64,000 bases of DNA from Rouxiella badensis (GTDB lineage: Bacteria > Pseudomonadota > Gammaproteobacteria > Enterobacterales > Enterobacteriaceae): positions 186,001 to 250,000 of the forward strand of contig NZ_MRWE01000002.1 in assembly GCF_002093665.1 (NCBI RefSeq), given 5' to 3'. Position numbers and translations under genes: made by a program. Shown in pieces: positions 36,425 through 49,284 of the stretch (its first letter is position 1; each line of letters opens with the position of its first letter). Under the pieces are notes generated by a model. It saw only the letters and a program-made list of their open reading frames with translations. It ran no database searches and was not told the origin of the DNA.

Positions 36425-36643
36425 TATCTTTCGCACGGCAGATGCGTTAGCTTCCTCCGCTCACCCCGGTCACTGACTTGTGTCAGCTCCCGGGGATTCG
36501 CCTCGTTGCTGCCTTCCTGCCGCACGAAATCTATCGCGTATTATTGCCGCGCAGATGCGTTAGCTTCCTCCGCTCACCCCGGTCACTGACTTGTGTCAGC
36601 TCCCGGGGATTCGCCTCGTTGTCGCCTTCTCGCACAGCGAAAT
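36425..36643. repeat. two tandem ERIC elements at the 3' end of barA
   Basis: Two near-identical units 113 bp apart have cores at 36464-36495 and 36577-36608. Each core has outer arms CCCCGG/CCGGGG and inner arms CTGAC/GTCAG around TTGT. The flanks CGCTCACCCC and CGGGGATTCGC correspond to the classical ERIC-PCR primer sites. A 35-nt block (36525-36559) is repeated at 36638-36672, where it covers the barA stop and last codons, so the tandem unit includes barA coding sequence. Confidence 0.8.
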
Positions 36644-39409
36644 CTATCGCGTATTATTGCCGCGCAGATGCGCTTTAGCTTCACGGGTTACGTTGTCAAT
36701 TTCATCCAGCAGTTCTAACCATTCGGGTTCGAGTTCGGCGGTAGAAGCGTTTTTTCTTAGCTGTTGTTCGATGTAGAAACACAGCTGTTTTAAACGCGGC
36801 ACGCCGCTGTAGCTACAGCTGCCGTGCAGCTTGTGGATCAGCGCCAGAATATCGGCATCTTTTTCGCCCTGGGTAATGGCGGTCACGCGGTTGCTGACCT
36901 GCGGCAGAAAATCGAGCAACATTTGCAGCAGGTCGTTAGCCAAGGCCTCTTTATTGGCCGACTGACGCAGCGCCAGCGGCCAATCCAGAGTCTTGAGAGA
37001 CTCCACCGGCATCGGCTTGTCGAGTGGGGTAAAGCTGTGCTGCGCAATCGGTGTCTGCGAAGAGTGATGGCGCGCCAACACGACTTTCAGCATCGCTTCA
37101 TCGATGGGCTTCGACAGGTAATCTTCCATTCCTGCTTTGATAAACTGCTCTCTTTCGCCACTCAGTGAGTGCGCAGTCACGGCAACAATAGGCGTTTTGC
37201 TGTGGTGCGGAAGCTGGTGAATCAATTCGCTAGTGCGGATGCCGTCGATCTTGGGCATCTGAATGTCCATCAGAATCACGTCCATGCTGACGTTCTTCGC
37301 CAGCTCAATGGCCTCTTCACCGCTGTTGCACAGCAAGGTGGTTTCGACCAGTTCCTCGAGCAGCGCCCCGATAAGCTTGAGATTGGCAGGGTTGTCGTCG
37401 ACGGCCATCACCGTCATCGGCAGGCGTTGGCCGCGATGACCTGCGCCTTCGCCGTCCTGGCTGCTGTCTTCGAGCAGATACGGCATCAGTCGCACGCTCG
37501 ACACCGGCTTACTCACGCAGGCATATACGCCTTTACTTTTGAGCTGTTCGGCCGAAATCTGGAACTGGCTTGGCAGTGCCAGTATCAGGCGATCGCAGTG
37601 GCTTAACAGCTGTTGCAACCGCTCTTCGTAATCTTGCAGGTGGTGGTTGAGGCGAATTGGCATGCCATAAAGAATGAAATCATAGTGCTCGTCAGGCAAC
37701 AGCGCCTGACTGGTGCGGTGAATGACCTCGACCGGCGTGCTCGACAGCATCTCCTTCACTGCCTTGGCTGCTGTCGGATTCGCCTCGATGTAGGCCAGTC
37801 TTTTGCCCCTCAGGCAGCTCATCGACGGCGGCGCGTGGTGATGGCTTTCATTAAGCTCAAGCGTGATGTGGAACCAGAAGGTTGAGCCACGGTTAAACTG
37901 GCTGTAGAAGCTGATATCGCCGCCCATCTCCTTTACCAGTCGCTGGGTGATAACCAGCCCCAGTCCTGTGCCACCGTGGCGGCGGGTAATGCTGGCGTCA
38001 GCCTGTCGGAAGGCCTGGAACAGCTGCGACTGCTGTCGTTCTGAAATGCCGATGCCGGTGTCGTGAATCTGCATCTCCAATTCGACTTGCAGATTGTTTT
38101 GCGAGCGCAATTCCACATTGATATCAATGTTGCCATTTTCGGTGAATTTGATGGCATTTCCCAGCAGATTTGTGACAACCTGCTGCAGTCGCATCGGGTC
38201 ACCCAGCACGTTTTCCGGCACATTATTGTGCACATTAATGGTGAGTTCCAGGCCTTTGTCGTGAGCGCTGTGCGCCAGCAGAATCACCACTTCGTCGAGC
38301 ATTTCTCGCAGCGAGAACGGAATGTGTTCCAGTACCAGCTTTCCGGCCTCCAGCTTTGAGAAATCGAGTACGTCATTAATGATGGTCAAAAGGTTGTTGG
38401 CCGAACGTTCAATAGTCTGCAAATAGTCCGTCTGGGTGGGCGAAAGCTGTGTTTTTAGGGTCTGGCGGGTAAAGCCAATGACCCCGTTAAGCGGAGTGCG
38501 CAGCTCGTGCGACATATTAGCCAGAAACTCTGACTTTATTCGCGCGGCTTCCTGAGCGCGCTTCTTCGCCAGATCGAGCTCCACGTTCTGGATCTCCATC
38601 TGCTCCAGCGTTTCGCGCAGGTCTGACGTCGCCTGATCGATGTTTTGCTGCACCTCCTCATGATAGGCGGTCAGGGACATCGCCATCGAATTGATGCCAT
38701 TTTTCAGCATGCTTAGCTCGCCGAGCATGTTGCCCTCAACGCGACTGTCGAGCTGGCCGCGACGAATTCGGTCGACGGTGTTGACCATATTACGGATAGG
38801 CCCGGTGACGTCACGCATTAGACGATAGGCAAACAGGGTGGCGATGCCGAGGCACAGCAGCAGGAATAGGGTTGAGACAAAGGCCTCCTGATACTGCTGA
38901 AGTCGTACCGAGCTGAGGTCAAGCTCAATGGCGATGTAACCGAGATTGCGCTCGGGGGACCCGCGAAAGTCGCCATCGGGGGCATCGGTGTGGTTCTCCG
39001 CCAGGATCGGGGTGCGCAGTATCAGGGAGTCGCCCGAGCGTTCCTGGGTAAGCTCCTGCGGCAGCGGGTCGCCGCTTGCTACCTGCAAAAGGTCGGTGTC
39101 GCGCAAGGAATTCGAGGTGGCAAACAGGGCGTTGTTGCCGTCAAACACGCTGATTGCCCGCACGATATCGGAGTGGGTGCGGTGCAGCCGGTCGATAAGT
39201 CGGGTTATGGGAGCGCGCTCGCGAAACGTCATCCCGTACTCACTGGCGACCGCCAGGGGTTCTATAATACTGGCACCCGAGTCGATGAGCTGGTTCTGCA
39301 ATTCGTTGTAGCGATGCACGATAAAGAAGGTGCTGAGCAGCAAACCGATCATTAACGTCGGTGCCAGAATTAAAATCATCATCCTTGCCCGAAGGCTATA
39401 TTTGGTCAT
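36644..39409 (-). CDS. barA: hybrid sensor histidine kinase BarA
   Basis: Tripartite sensor that phosphorylates UvrY and so controls the Csr carbon-storage system in response to short-chain acids. It is 921 residues: TM1 near 10-30, a periplasmic domain, TM2 near 175-195, HAMP, a HisKA H-box ([13 protein letters not shown]), an HATPase domain ([16 protein letters not shown]), a receiver with Asp in ILMDIQMP, and a C-terminal Hpt domain with [12 protein letters not shown]. Its 3' end is part of a tandem ERIC repeat. It is divergent from rlmD. Confidence 0.97.
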
Positions 39410-47741: not shown

Positions 47742-48413
47742 ATGCAGTACCCGATTAACGAGATGTTCGAAACCCTGCAAGGGGAAGGCTATTTTACCGG
47801 CGTGCCGGCTATTTTTATTCGTTTACAGGGCTGCCCGGTGGGCTGTAGCTGGTGCGATACGAAACACACCTGGGAAAAATTCGCCGATCGTGAAGTCGAT
47901 ATGCAGCGTATCCTGGTTAAAACCGAAGAGAGCGACGCGTGGGGCAATGCCACCGCCGAGCAGCTGCATCAGGTTATCAAGAATCAGGGTTGGACGGCCA
48001 ACCACGTCGTGATAACCGGCGGTGAGCCGTGCATCTACGATTTGCAGCCGTTGACCGAGCTTTTGGAATCATTGGGCTATAGCTGCCAGATTGAAACCAG
48101 TGGCACGCATGAAGTGCGCTGTTCTGCCAAGACCTGGGTGACGGTTTCTCCAAAAGTGAATATGCGTGGCGGTTACGACATTCTGCCGCAGGCTCTGCAG
48201 CGAGCAGACGAGATTAAGCATCCGGTCGCACGCCAGCGTGATATCGATGCATTGGAAGTGTTGCTTGCGACACTGACCGACCAGAAGGCGCGTATTATCG
48301 CCCTACAGCCGATCAGTCAGAAAGAAGAAGCCACTAAATTGTGTATCGCGACGTGCATCGCCAAAAACTGGCGGTTGTCAATGCAGACCCATAAGTATTT
48401 AAACATCGCCTAA
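47742..48413 (+). CDS. queE: 7-carboxy-7-deazaguanine synthase
   Basis: Radical-SAM enzyme forming the 7-deazaguanine ring of queuosine precursors from carboxytetrahydropterin. It is 223 residues, the E. coli length. The cluster cysteines are in GCPVGCSWCDTKHTW (a CX3CX2C form), and GGEP follows. The start at 47742 gives MQYPINEMFETLQGEG; the frame is open upstream to 47640 but this is not family-like, and the ribosome-binding site is weak. It is convergent with queD across a repeat array. Confidence 0.96.
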   Translation: MQYPINEMFETLQGEGYFTGVPAIFIRLQGCPVGCSWCDTKHTWEKFADREVDMQRILVKTEESDAWGNATAEQLHQVIKNQGWTANHVVITGGEPCIYDLQPLTELLESLGYSCQIETSGTHEVRCSAKTWVTVSPKVNMRGGYDILPQALQRADEIKHPVARQRDIDALEVLLATLTDQKARIIALQPISQKEEATKLCIATCIAKNWRLSMQTHKYLNIA

Positions 48414-48924
48414 TTTTCTTCGCCCTTGTCACTGTGGCGGCGTTGCTTCGCTTGCTCGCCCGAATCACTGACTTATGTCAGCTCATCGGGACTTGCGCAC
48501 TTTGCGCCTTGCCACAGCAACAAGGGCTTTGAAAATTCTTTCTTTGGTCTTGTCACTGTGGCGGCGTTGCTTCGCTTACTCGCCCGAATCACTGACTCAT
48601 GTCAGCTCATCGGGACTTGCGCACTTTGCGCCTTGCCACAGCAACAAGGGCTTTGAAAATTCTTTCTTTGGTCTTGTCACTGTGGCGGCGTTGCTTCGCT
48701 TGCTCGCACGAATCACTGACTTATGTCAGCTCATCGGGACTTGCGCACTTTGCGCCTTGCTACAGCAACAAGGGCTTTGAAAATTCTTTCTTTGGTCTTG
48801 TCACTGTGGCGGCGTTGCTTCGCTTACTCGCCCGAATCACTGACTTATGTCAGCTCATCGGGACTTGCGCACTTTGCGCCTTGCCACAGCAACAAGGGCT
48901 TTGAAAAGAGGTTAGGCGAGCAGT
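48414..48924. repeat. four tandem ERIC-like repeats between queE and queD
   Basis: A 511-bp gene-free gap is filled by four units of exactly 124 bp starting at 48425, 48549, 48673 and 48797 (the last ends near 48907). Cores at 48459-48490, 48583-48614, 48707-48738 and 48831-48862 have outer arms CCCGA/TCGGG (unit 3: CACGA) and inner arms CTGAC/GTCAG. Unit ends are also inverted (CTTGTCACTGTGGC against GCCACAGCAACAAGG), so each unit is a long imperfect palindrome, as in ERIC. Units differ at only a few bases. Confidence 0.8.
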
Positions 48925-49284
48925 TTAACCGCGATAAACGCAGCCGGCGGTGCAGGTTTCTTTGATGCGCACCGCGCTCAGCAGGGGAAGCTGAGGCTTC
49001 ATCTTGTTCCAGATCCATTCGGCGAGTACTTCGCTGGTTGGATTTTCAAGGCCCGGGATATCATTGAGATAATAGTGATCCAGGCTGTCTAGGGTCGGTT
49101 TAAACGCGGCTTTCAGCTCAGCAAAATCCATGACCCAGCCGGTGTGTGGATCAACTTCGCCGGTGATTTCCAGACGCACGGCAAAAGAGTGCCCATGCAG
49201 GCGGCCACATTTATGCCCTGCGGGAACGTGAGGCAGGTGATGAGCGGCTTCGAACATAAAATCTTTAAATAATGTAGTGGTCAT
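48925..49284 (-). CDS. queD: 6-carboxy-5,6,7,8-tetrahydropterin synthase
   Basis: Turns dihydroneopterin triphosphate into 6-carboxytetrahydropterin, the substrate of QueE. It is 119 residues. Zinc-binding histidines lie in FEAAHHLPH and RLHGHSF, with the catalytic Cys in GHKCGRLHG. It faces queE across the repeat array; in E. coli the two genes are also near each other but separated by other genes. GluQ in this window acts on tRNA carrying the final queuosine. Confidence 0.97.

Follow-up and report, generated by a model that had tools for sequence, protein, structure and literature searches.

How does a short intergenic element of a dispersed family come to stand four times in a row between two genes, and what would such a row do there? 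This question is raised by the spacer between queE and queD in Rouxiella badensis, which we analyzed within a contiguous stretch of 64,000 nucleotides (hereafter the window; Table 1). The initial annotation, made from the letters of this DNA, had described four exact 124-bp tandem ERIC-type units between two convergent genes. This layout was confirmed by the period, the core positions and the NCBIfam calls: the four head-to-tail units follow each other with a start-to-start distance of exactly 124 bp, Tandem Repeats Finder reported a period of 124 over 48425-48907 (3.9 copies, 97% matches), a repeat search gave start-to-start spacings of 124 and 124, strict ERIC cores lie at 48465, 48589, 48713 and 48837, and the two gene families were found on opposite strands. 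The word exact holds for the spacing and not for the sequences, which are near-identical, with pairwise differences at 1-4 positions per 112 bp. Each period consists of an element of about 111-122 bp and a 13-bp linker, which is found solely between units and is absent at the array edges, and its length is close to that of ERIC (127 bp). ERIC has a TA target that is duplicated on insertion. At the queE stop codon the left end reads TAATTTTC, and the right end reads GAAAAGAGG, which contains no TA; the corresponding spacer of Rouxiella silvae is too different to serve as an empty site. The annotation had also proposed that a dimer was duplicated as a block, since units 1 and 3 carry GCTTGCTCG and units 2 and 4 carry GCTTACTCG. 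This alternation concerns a single site, and at each of the other four variable sites, one of which is at the extreme left edge, a single unit deviates, except for the right flank of unit 4, so the block duplication was not supported. ORFs of 76-101 aa cross the array; since the period of 124 is not divisible by 3, a reading as a repeat protein was set aside. Plasmid matches to 48200-49200 of the window comprised 10 records, of which 7 covered the queD side only, 1 covered the queE and queD sides, and 2 covered the array region only.

Table 1. Coordinates of the features discussed, counted from the first nucleotide of the window
Feature	Position	Strand	Basis or remark
Tandem array, four ERIC-like units, period 124 bp	48414..48910	+	Tandem Repeats Finder, repeat search, ERIC alignment, core positions
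Unit 1, left end abutting queE stop codon, reads TAATTTTC...	48414..48535	+	
Linker TTCTTTCTTTGGT, repeated at 48660-48672 and 48784-48796	48536..48548	+	Between units only
Unit 2	48549..48659	+	
Unit 3	48673..48783	+	
Unit 4, periodicity ends at GAAAA	48797..48907	+	
queE, 7-carboxy-7-deazaguanine synthase	47742..48413	+	NCBIfam TIGR04322, 369.9 bits
queD, 6-carboxytetrahydropterin synthase, convergent with queE	48925..49284	-	NCBIfam TIGR03367, 110.5 bits
Further ERIC tandem, a dimer of period 113, oriented like the queE-queD array	36438..36682	+	Tandem Repeats Finder, ERIC alignment

The assignment to ERIC was borne out by alignment. Using the consensus letters given in PMC2759123, the queE-queD units reached local scores of 87-94 in forward and 19-22 in reverse orientation, compared with a maximum of 46.5 in 300 shuffles of unit 4, and 85 of 120 aligned bases of unit 1 are identical to the E. 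coli ERIC consensus, which places the relatedness above chance. The second tandem of the window is nearer to the consensus (92 of 122 identical). A search of the whole window against Rfam at gathering thresholds returned no match. As judged from its sequence, the queE-queD unit is a diverged relative of ERIC: it has the core palindrome, the length, the intergenic place, the hairpin and the dispersed copies of ERIC (IRU), a MITE-like element of about 127 bp, but it differs in its homogenized head-to-tail arrays, its diverged arms and ends, and an orientation that follows the replichore in some genera. In a review, ERIC is described as a MITE with variable copy number (PMC10969869). Copies were counted here with the strict core TCACTNACNNNNGTNAGCTC, which misses diverged copies, so that all counts are lower bounds and an apparent solo may have diverged neighbors. 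The R. badensis genome has 18 strict cores dispersed over 9 places, namely five arrays (14 cores) and four solos. With crude ORF calling, no ORF was flagged as spanning the element in 34 intervals of a second genome of the genus (G004), and some ORFs run into it, by up to 109 bp (L149).

The view that ERIC elements are normally solitary fails in this genus. Arrays are present at 5 of the 9 places in R. badensis, and in G004, which is assembled in two contigs and has 96 strict cores, they occupy 20 of the 34 intervals examined around cores, with up to 8 units. Among 246 genomes of the family, 119 contain the strict core, and head-to-tail core pairs at 105-135 bp were found in 31 genomes and 22 of 154 genera; of the 145 pairs summed, 73 came from the three same-genus genomes sampled. 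In contrast to these pairs, no head-to-head pair at unit spacing was found in the 246 genomes, and no tail-to-tail pair in 43 genomes, a subset including all 31 with head-to-tail pairs. A control spacing of 170-200 bp gave 7 pairs in 5 of the same 43 genomes, and a single 186-bp array supplied three of these pairs. An ERIC array with a 186-bp period and four cores was seen in another genus (G071:C93:41123-41700). Copy number alone does not account for the tandem habit, because two genomes with 121 and 127 cores (G179 and G268) have no pair, G268 being a draft, a kind of assembly that can lose arrays. In G004, as at queE, the stop codon of a co-oriented ORF is frequently found within a few bases of the element's left end (L122-L125, L129, L133, L136, L138-L142).

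The age of the queE-queD array can be judged from orthologous loci. By QueE, the closest named genomes, at 94% each, are those of R. silvae and Serratia sp. M24T3. The queE-queD spacer of R. silvae is 56 bp long and lacks the element; in M24T3 one diverged unit is present, and because linker-like sequence follows it up to the contig end, the locus is suggested to hold further units. G004 carries 7 units at this site. Unit distances at queE-queD are 1-4 within R. badensis, 0-5 among units 1-6 of G004, and 5-9 between the two species; unit 7 of G004, next to queD, shows 11-15 differences from the other units of both species, and unit 1 of M24T3 shows 22-26 differences with gaps (31-37 ungapped, inflated by a one-base indel). 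We relied on these distances because a tree of the queE-queD units contained no supported fork. Since this site holds 7 units in G004 and units are more alike within than between species, the array predates the species split and is internally homogenized, and the low divergence between units, which had been taken as a sign of recent expansion, reflects turnover instead. At five orthologous loci the numbers of strict cores in R. badensis and G004 are 4/7 (queE-queD), 4/8 (3 in a further genome, G005), 1/3, 2/4 and 1/1, in a comparison between species in which the R. badensis counts may be too low, its genome being a draft. At the first four of these loci, tandem units differ in copy number between lineages, as in VNTRs or minisatellites and with the same reservation about the draft; the array type is specific to each species at three orthologous loci. 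An ERIC-family element lies directly after queE, is tandem both here and in the sister species, and differs between them in copy number.

Because the R. badensis genome is a draft of 72 contigs, the exact number four at queE-queD could be wrong, and the initial annotation had named an assembly artefact as a possible outcome. As an explanation of the array itself, an artefact is hardly credible and is largely refuted by G004, whose two contigs contain this array, there 7 units long, and 19 others. The second refuting outcome named in the annotation, a unit unrelated to ERIC, is contradicted by the alignment to the consensus.

ERIC-like elements between queE and queD also occur outside the genus. 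Among 80 named queE loci, 66 have queD nearby, and 13 of these have an ERIC-like element in between, namely 6 of 7 in Rahnella, 6 of 10 in Yersinia and one in Serratia; two of the Yersinia elements are tandem according to Tandem Repeats Finder. These loci are L006, L007, L009, L011-L013, L020, L021, L025, L029, L031, L032 and L039. In 8 of the 9 spacers inspected, the element directly follows the queE stop codon. An ancestral insertion and an insertion hot spot are alternatives for this recurrence.

The origin of the rows was addressed by comparing 25 arrays of R. badensis (G000) and G004 through 69 core-to-core segments. Identity was 0.969 within arrays (median of 100 pairs; minimum 0.931) and 0.649 between arrays (300 pairs), and the three highest between-array identities (0.919, 0.80 and 0.78) belonged to orthologous pairs. 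The arrays grew in place, because each of the 25 has its own sequence type and orthologous arrays are the closest pairs. This result argues against arrays that were inserted as ready multimers, with a head-to-tail dimer or circle as the transposition intermediate. Intermediates with abutted ends are found in IS elements, and by analogy such a route would account for the strict head-to-tail order and for some end-to-end joins, but we hold it to be quite improbable here.

The main rival to duplication in place is serial insertion, in which separate ERIC copies would have inserted beside a resident one, using a TA within or close to the end of the latter, and would later have been homogenized by recombination. 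Several features fit this reading. Some junctions, as in G193 and G255, read GGGTATATACCC, two ERIC ends around a TA, and look like two elements sharing one TA. In addition, linkers vary among the 25 arrays, whose periods range from 113 to 158 bp, as would be the case with insertions a few bases apart, and in G004 a polarity of insertion would by itself yield head-to-tail order. Many linkers are longer than the 2-bp target duplication (13 bp at queE-queD), and insertion near a resident copy is favored in some arrays for this reason. However, duplication is favored because the head-to-tail order is strict even in genomes without polarity, where head-to-head and tail-to-tail pairs are absent as well, and because units are alike within an array while arrays differ. 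On balance, we consider serial insertion unlikely. The array edges also bear on growth in place. In 24 of 25 arrays, periodicity begins 32-59 bp ahead of the first core, near the left end of the element. The right edge coincides with the right end of the element (58-78 bp past the last core) in 12 of 25, stops short in 7 and runs past in 6, as expected if terminal units were truncated or diverged, which leaves room for other histories too.

What the units may do was examined through their structure. On the + strand, each of the four units folds better than all 200 of its own dinucleotide shuffles (MFE -44 to -56.5 kcal/mol, z -4.2 to -7.0), and in all four folds the ends are paired with each other in a long imperfect hairpin with terminal inverted repeats, so the predicted hairpin in every unit was found. 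In an alignment of 47 loci with one unit each, whose rows share ancestry and include orthologous pairs and whose counts are therefore not independent, covariation is present in both the outer and the core stems: standard pairs make up 92.8% of the cells versus 80.5% after shuffling, both sides are changed in 80 cells versus 25.9, and the covariation score is 0.337 versus 0.135, none of these three values being reached in 500 shuffles. Two of the five measures, the counts of pairs and of pair types, are weak (reached by 170 and 33 of 500 shuffles). When stem partners were slid by 1-3 columns, 16-51% remained paired, in a comparison that favors the structure since it was derived from the same alignment. 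In 41 of the 47 loci, the unit's own left and right arms fold better than its left arm does on average with 12 random other right arms. The alignment excludes L140, an aberrant unit; L093 and L096, which lack a strict core, were left out of the counts. Seven stem pairs (alignment columns 21-26 with 104-109, and 59 with 68) contain 24 A.C and 6 G.U cells, with relatedness uncontrolled; A.C corresponds to G.U on the opposite strand, and the excess could hint at the folding strand, a point on which we draw no conclusion.

The annotation had expected a ladder of hairpins at the ends of the queE and queD transcripts. As structures, the hairpins stand, since they covary between loci; termination by them is not supported, because none of the three terminator-like sites found (GC-rich hairpin and T run) lies inside the array, and an intrinsic terminator was rejected as the function of the array. 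More probably, the array is a hairpin region that is tolerated at the 3' ends of queE and queD and no dedicated terminator. Selection of the array as a 3'-end structure, either terminator or mRNA stabilizer, for these two genes or for convergent genes generally, would be in line with the covarying stems and with the placement in G004, where 11 of 20 arrays lie between convergent and 1 of 20 between divergent ORFs, compared with 6 and 4 of 14 solos. According to PMC10969869, an ERIC inserted at 3' ends in Yersinia enterocolitica can act through an RNase E site and change the level of the transcript. However, 53 of the 66 named loci with both genes, including R. silvae, have no ERIC-like element between them, and the placement, as counted in these 34 intervals, may reflect no more than selection against promoter regions. 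With the lack of a terminator-like site in the array, this makes selection for a 3'-end role rather improbable.

A further feature of the element is its orientation. In G004, the + strand carries all 7 loci at 0.54-2.43 Mb, and the - strand carries 27 of the 28 loci at 2.80-5.16 Mb; GC skew, sampled at 20 points, is positive over 0-2.45 Mb and negative from 2.61 Mb on, with weak values at the first and last samples. Orientation therefore agrees with the replichore at 34 of 35 loci, and at 16 of 17 convergent loci, the sole exception being the convergent locus L145. By crude ORF calling, the flanking ORFs of 34 intervals are convergent in 17, codirectional with the element in 8, codirectional against it in 4 and divergent in 5, and gene direction apparently does not explain the bias in G004. 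In G255, of another genus, 23 of 27 loci agree; its codirectional ORFs run with the element in 11 cases and against it in 7, 17 of these 18 loci follow the replichore, and of only two convergent loci one is for and one against it.

The replichore test covered 11 genomes with a chromosome-length contig (Table 2), and flanking genes were inspected in two of them, G004 and G255. It left out G268, a draft, as well as G019 and G022, which have few loci. Agreement was found at 166 of 220 pooled loci, after 33 of 253 loci that lie between skew samples of opposite sign had been set aside as ambiguous and loci beyond the last sample had been given its sign. G004 and the genus of G255 and G154 show a strong bias, and three genomes show none; in the others it is moderate, and a gene-direction effect could contribute there. 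A best-two-breakpoint test of orientation in 11 genomes (without G195 and G204), significant for G004, G154 and G255 only, was superseded by replichores defined from GC skew. In G204 (L221-L230), the skew samples change sign more than twice, and near 2.3-2.9 Mb most cores are on the - strand, as predicted by the single negative sample there. In the R. badensis window, GC skew is positive and all 6 strict cores are on the + strand. One further core on the same contig (C27:58462) is on the - strand, and two contigs of the draft carry ERIC-like copies in both orientations (G000:C27:58462; G000:C18:12113 / 48998), against strict polarity.

Table 2. ERIC loci that follow, oppose or are ambiguous to the replichore
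Genome	Follow/against/ambiguous	Remark
G004	34/1/0	
G255	23/4/0	
G154	13/1/0	Genus of G255
G028	13/4/0	
G195	42/18/1	Only 4 skew samples
G204	21/9/21	Irregular skew
G002	5/1/3	Not significant alone
G100	4/1/3	Not significant alone
G190	3/5/1	No bias
G021	3/4/0	No bias
G030	5/6/4	No bias

We favor, with moderate confidence, the reading of these rows as a MITE-derived bacterial minisatellite that grew in place and is kept uniform by unequal exchange or slippage. Tandem units that span the whole element, growth in place, a conserved palindrome and, in some genera, polarity were all observed. There are also points against this reading: the right edge falls at the element end in only 12 of the 25 arrays, linkers longer than 2 bp also fit nearby insertions followed by homogenization, the unit tree lacks a supported fork, some covariation measures are weak, G190, G021 and G030 show no replichore bias, and some high-copy genomes have no tandem. 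In the mechanism that we propose for the minisatellite, the first duplication would join the element's own two ends. Most likely, the long palindrome would fold at the replication fork and bring the ends together, and the nascent strand would then copy the element again. From two copies onward, the number of units could be altered by unequal exchange or slippage, which could also spread variants along the row, a process that would amount to concerted evolution. The orientation along replichores, strong in this genus and one other, may in turn reflect insertion or survival coupled to fork direction. More tentatively, at somewhat short of an even chance, ERIC as a whole may be coupled to the replication fork, inserting or surviving in one orientation relative to fork movement, with the fork in Rouxiella also turning single copies into head-to-tail rows.

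These arrays resemble several known systems in part. First, BIME/REP clusters and pneumococcal BOX elements are likewise small palindromic intergenic repeats able to occur in rows, but here the unit is a whole ERIC-like element with head-to-tail neighbors only. Second, bacterial VNTRs and minisatellites are likewise tandem and differ in copy number between lineages, whereas the present arrays originate from a mobile element, one family having seeded many unlinked loci. Third, the orientation of IS200/IS605 and of TnsE-directed Tn7 also follows the direction of replication, but ERIC, unlike these, has terminal inverted repeats and a TA target. In eukaryotic satellite DNA derived from MITEs, a mobile element has likewise become a tandem array with concerted evolution; the present arrays differ in being bacterial, in having 2-8 units and in their replication polarity. 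A literature search on tandem or oriented ERICs, with coverage that did not include De Gregorio 2005 and Wilson and Sharp 2006, found no report of homogenized tandem arrays or replichore polarity, which does not prove their absence, and the accessible parts of PMC2759123, PMC10969869 and PMC3091717 do not mention tandem ERIC arrays or ERIC replichore polarity. The arrays can also serve as a small bacterial model for the passage from mobile element to satellite under concerted evolution.

Strains are typed by ERIC worldwide, yet its mode of movement is not known, and we know of no transposase for it. Typing of this kind would be affected by arrays whose copy number changes, and a replichore polarity that is independent of gene direction would be a direct and testable clue to the insertion mechanism of ERIC. 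If the coupling to the replication fork is true, a bacterial repeat regarded as interspersed would behave like satellite DNA, with replication-directed birth and concerted evolution.
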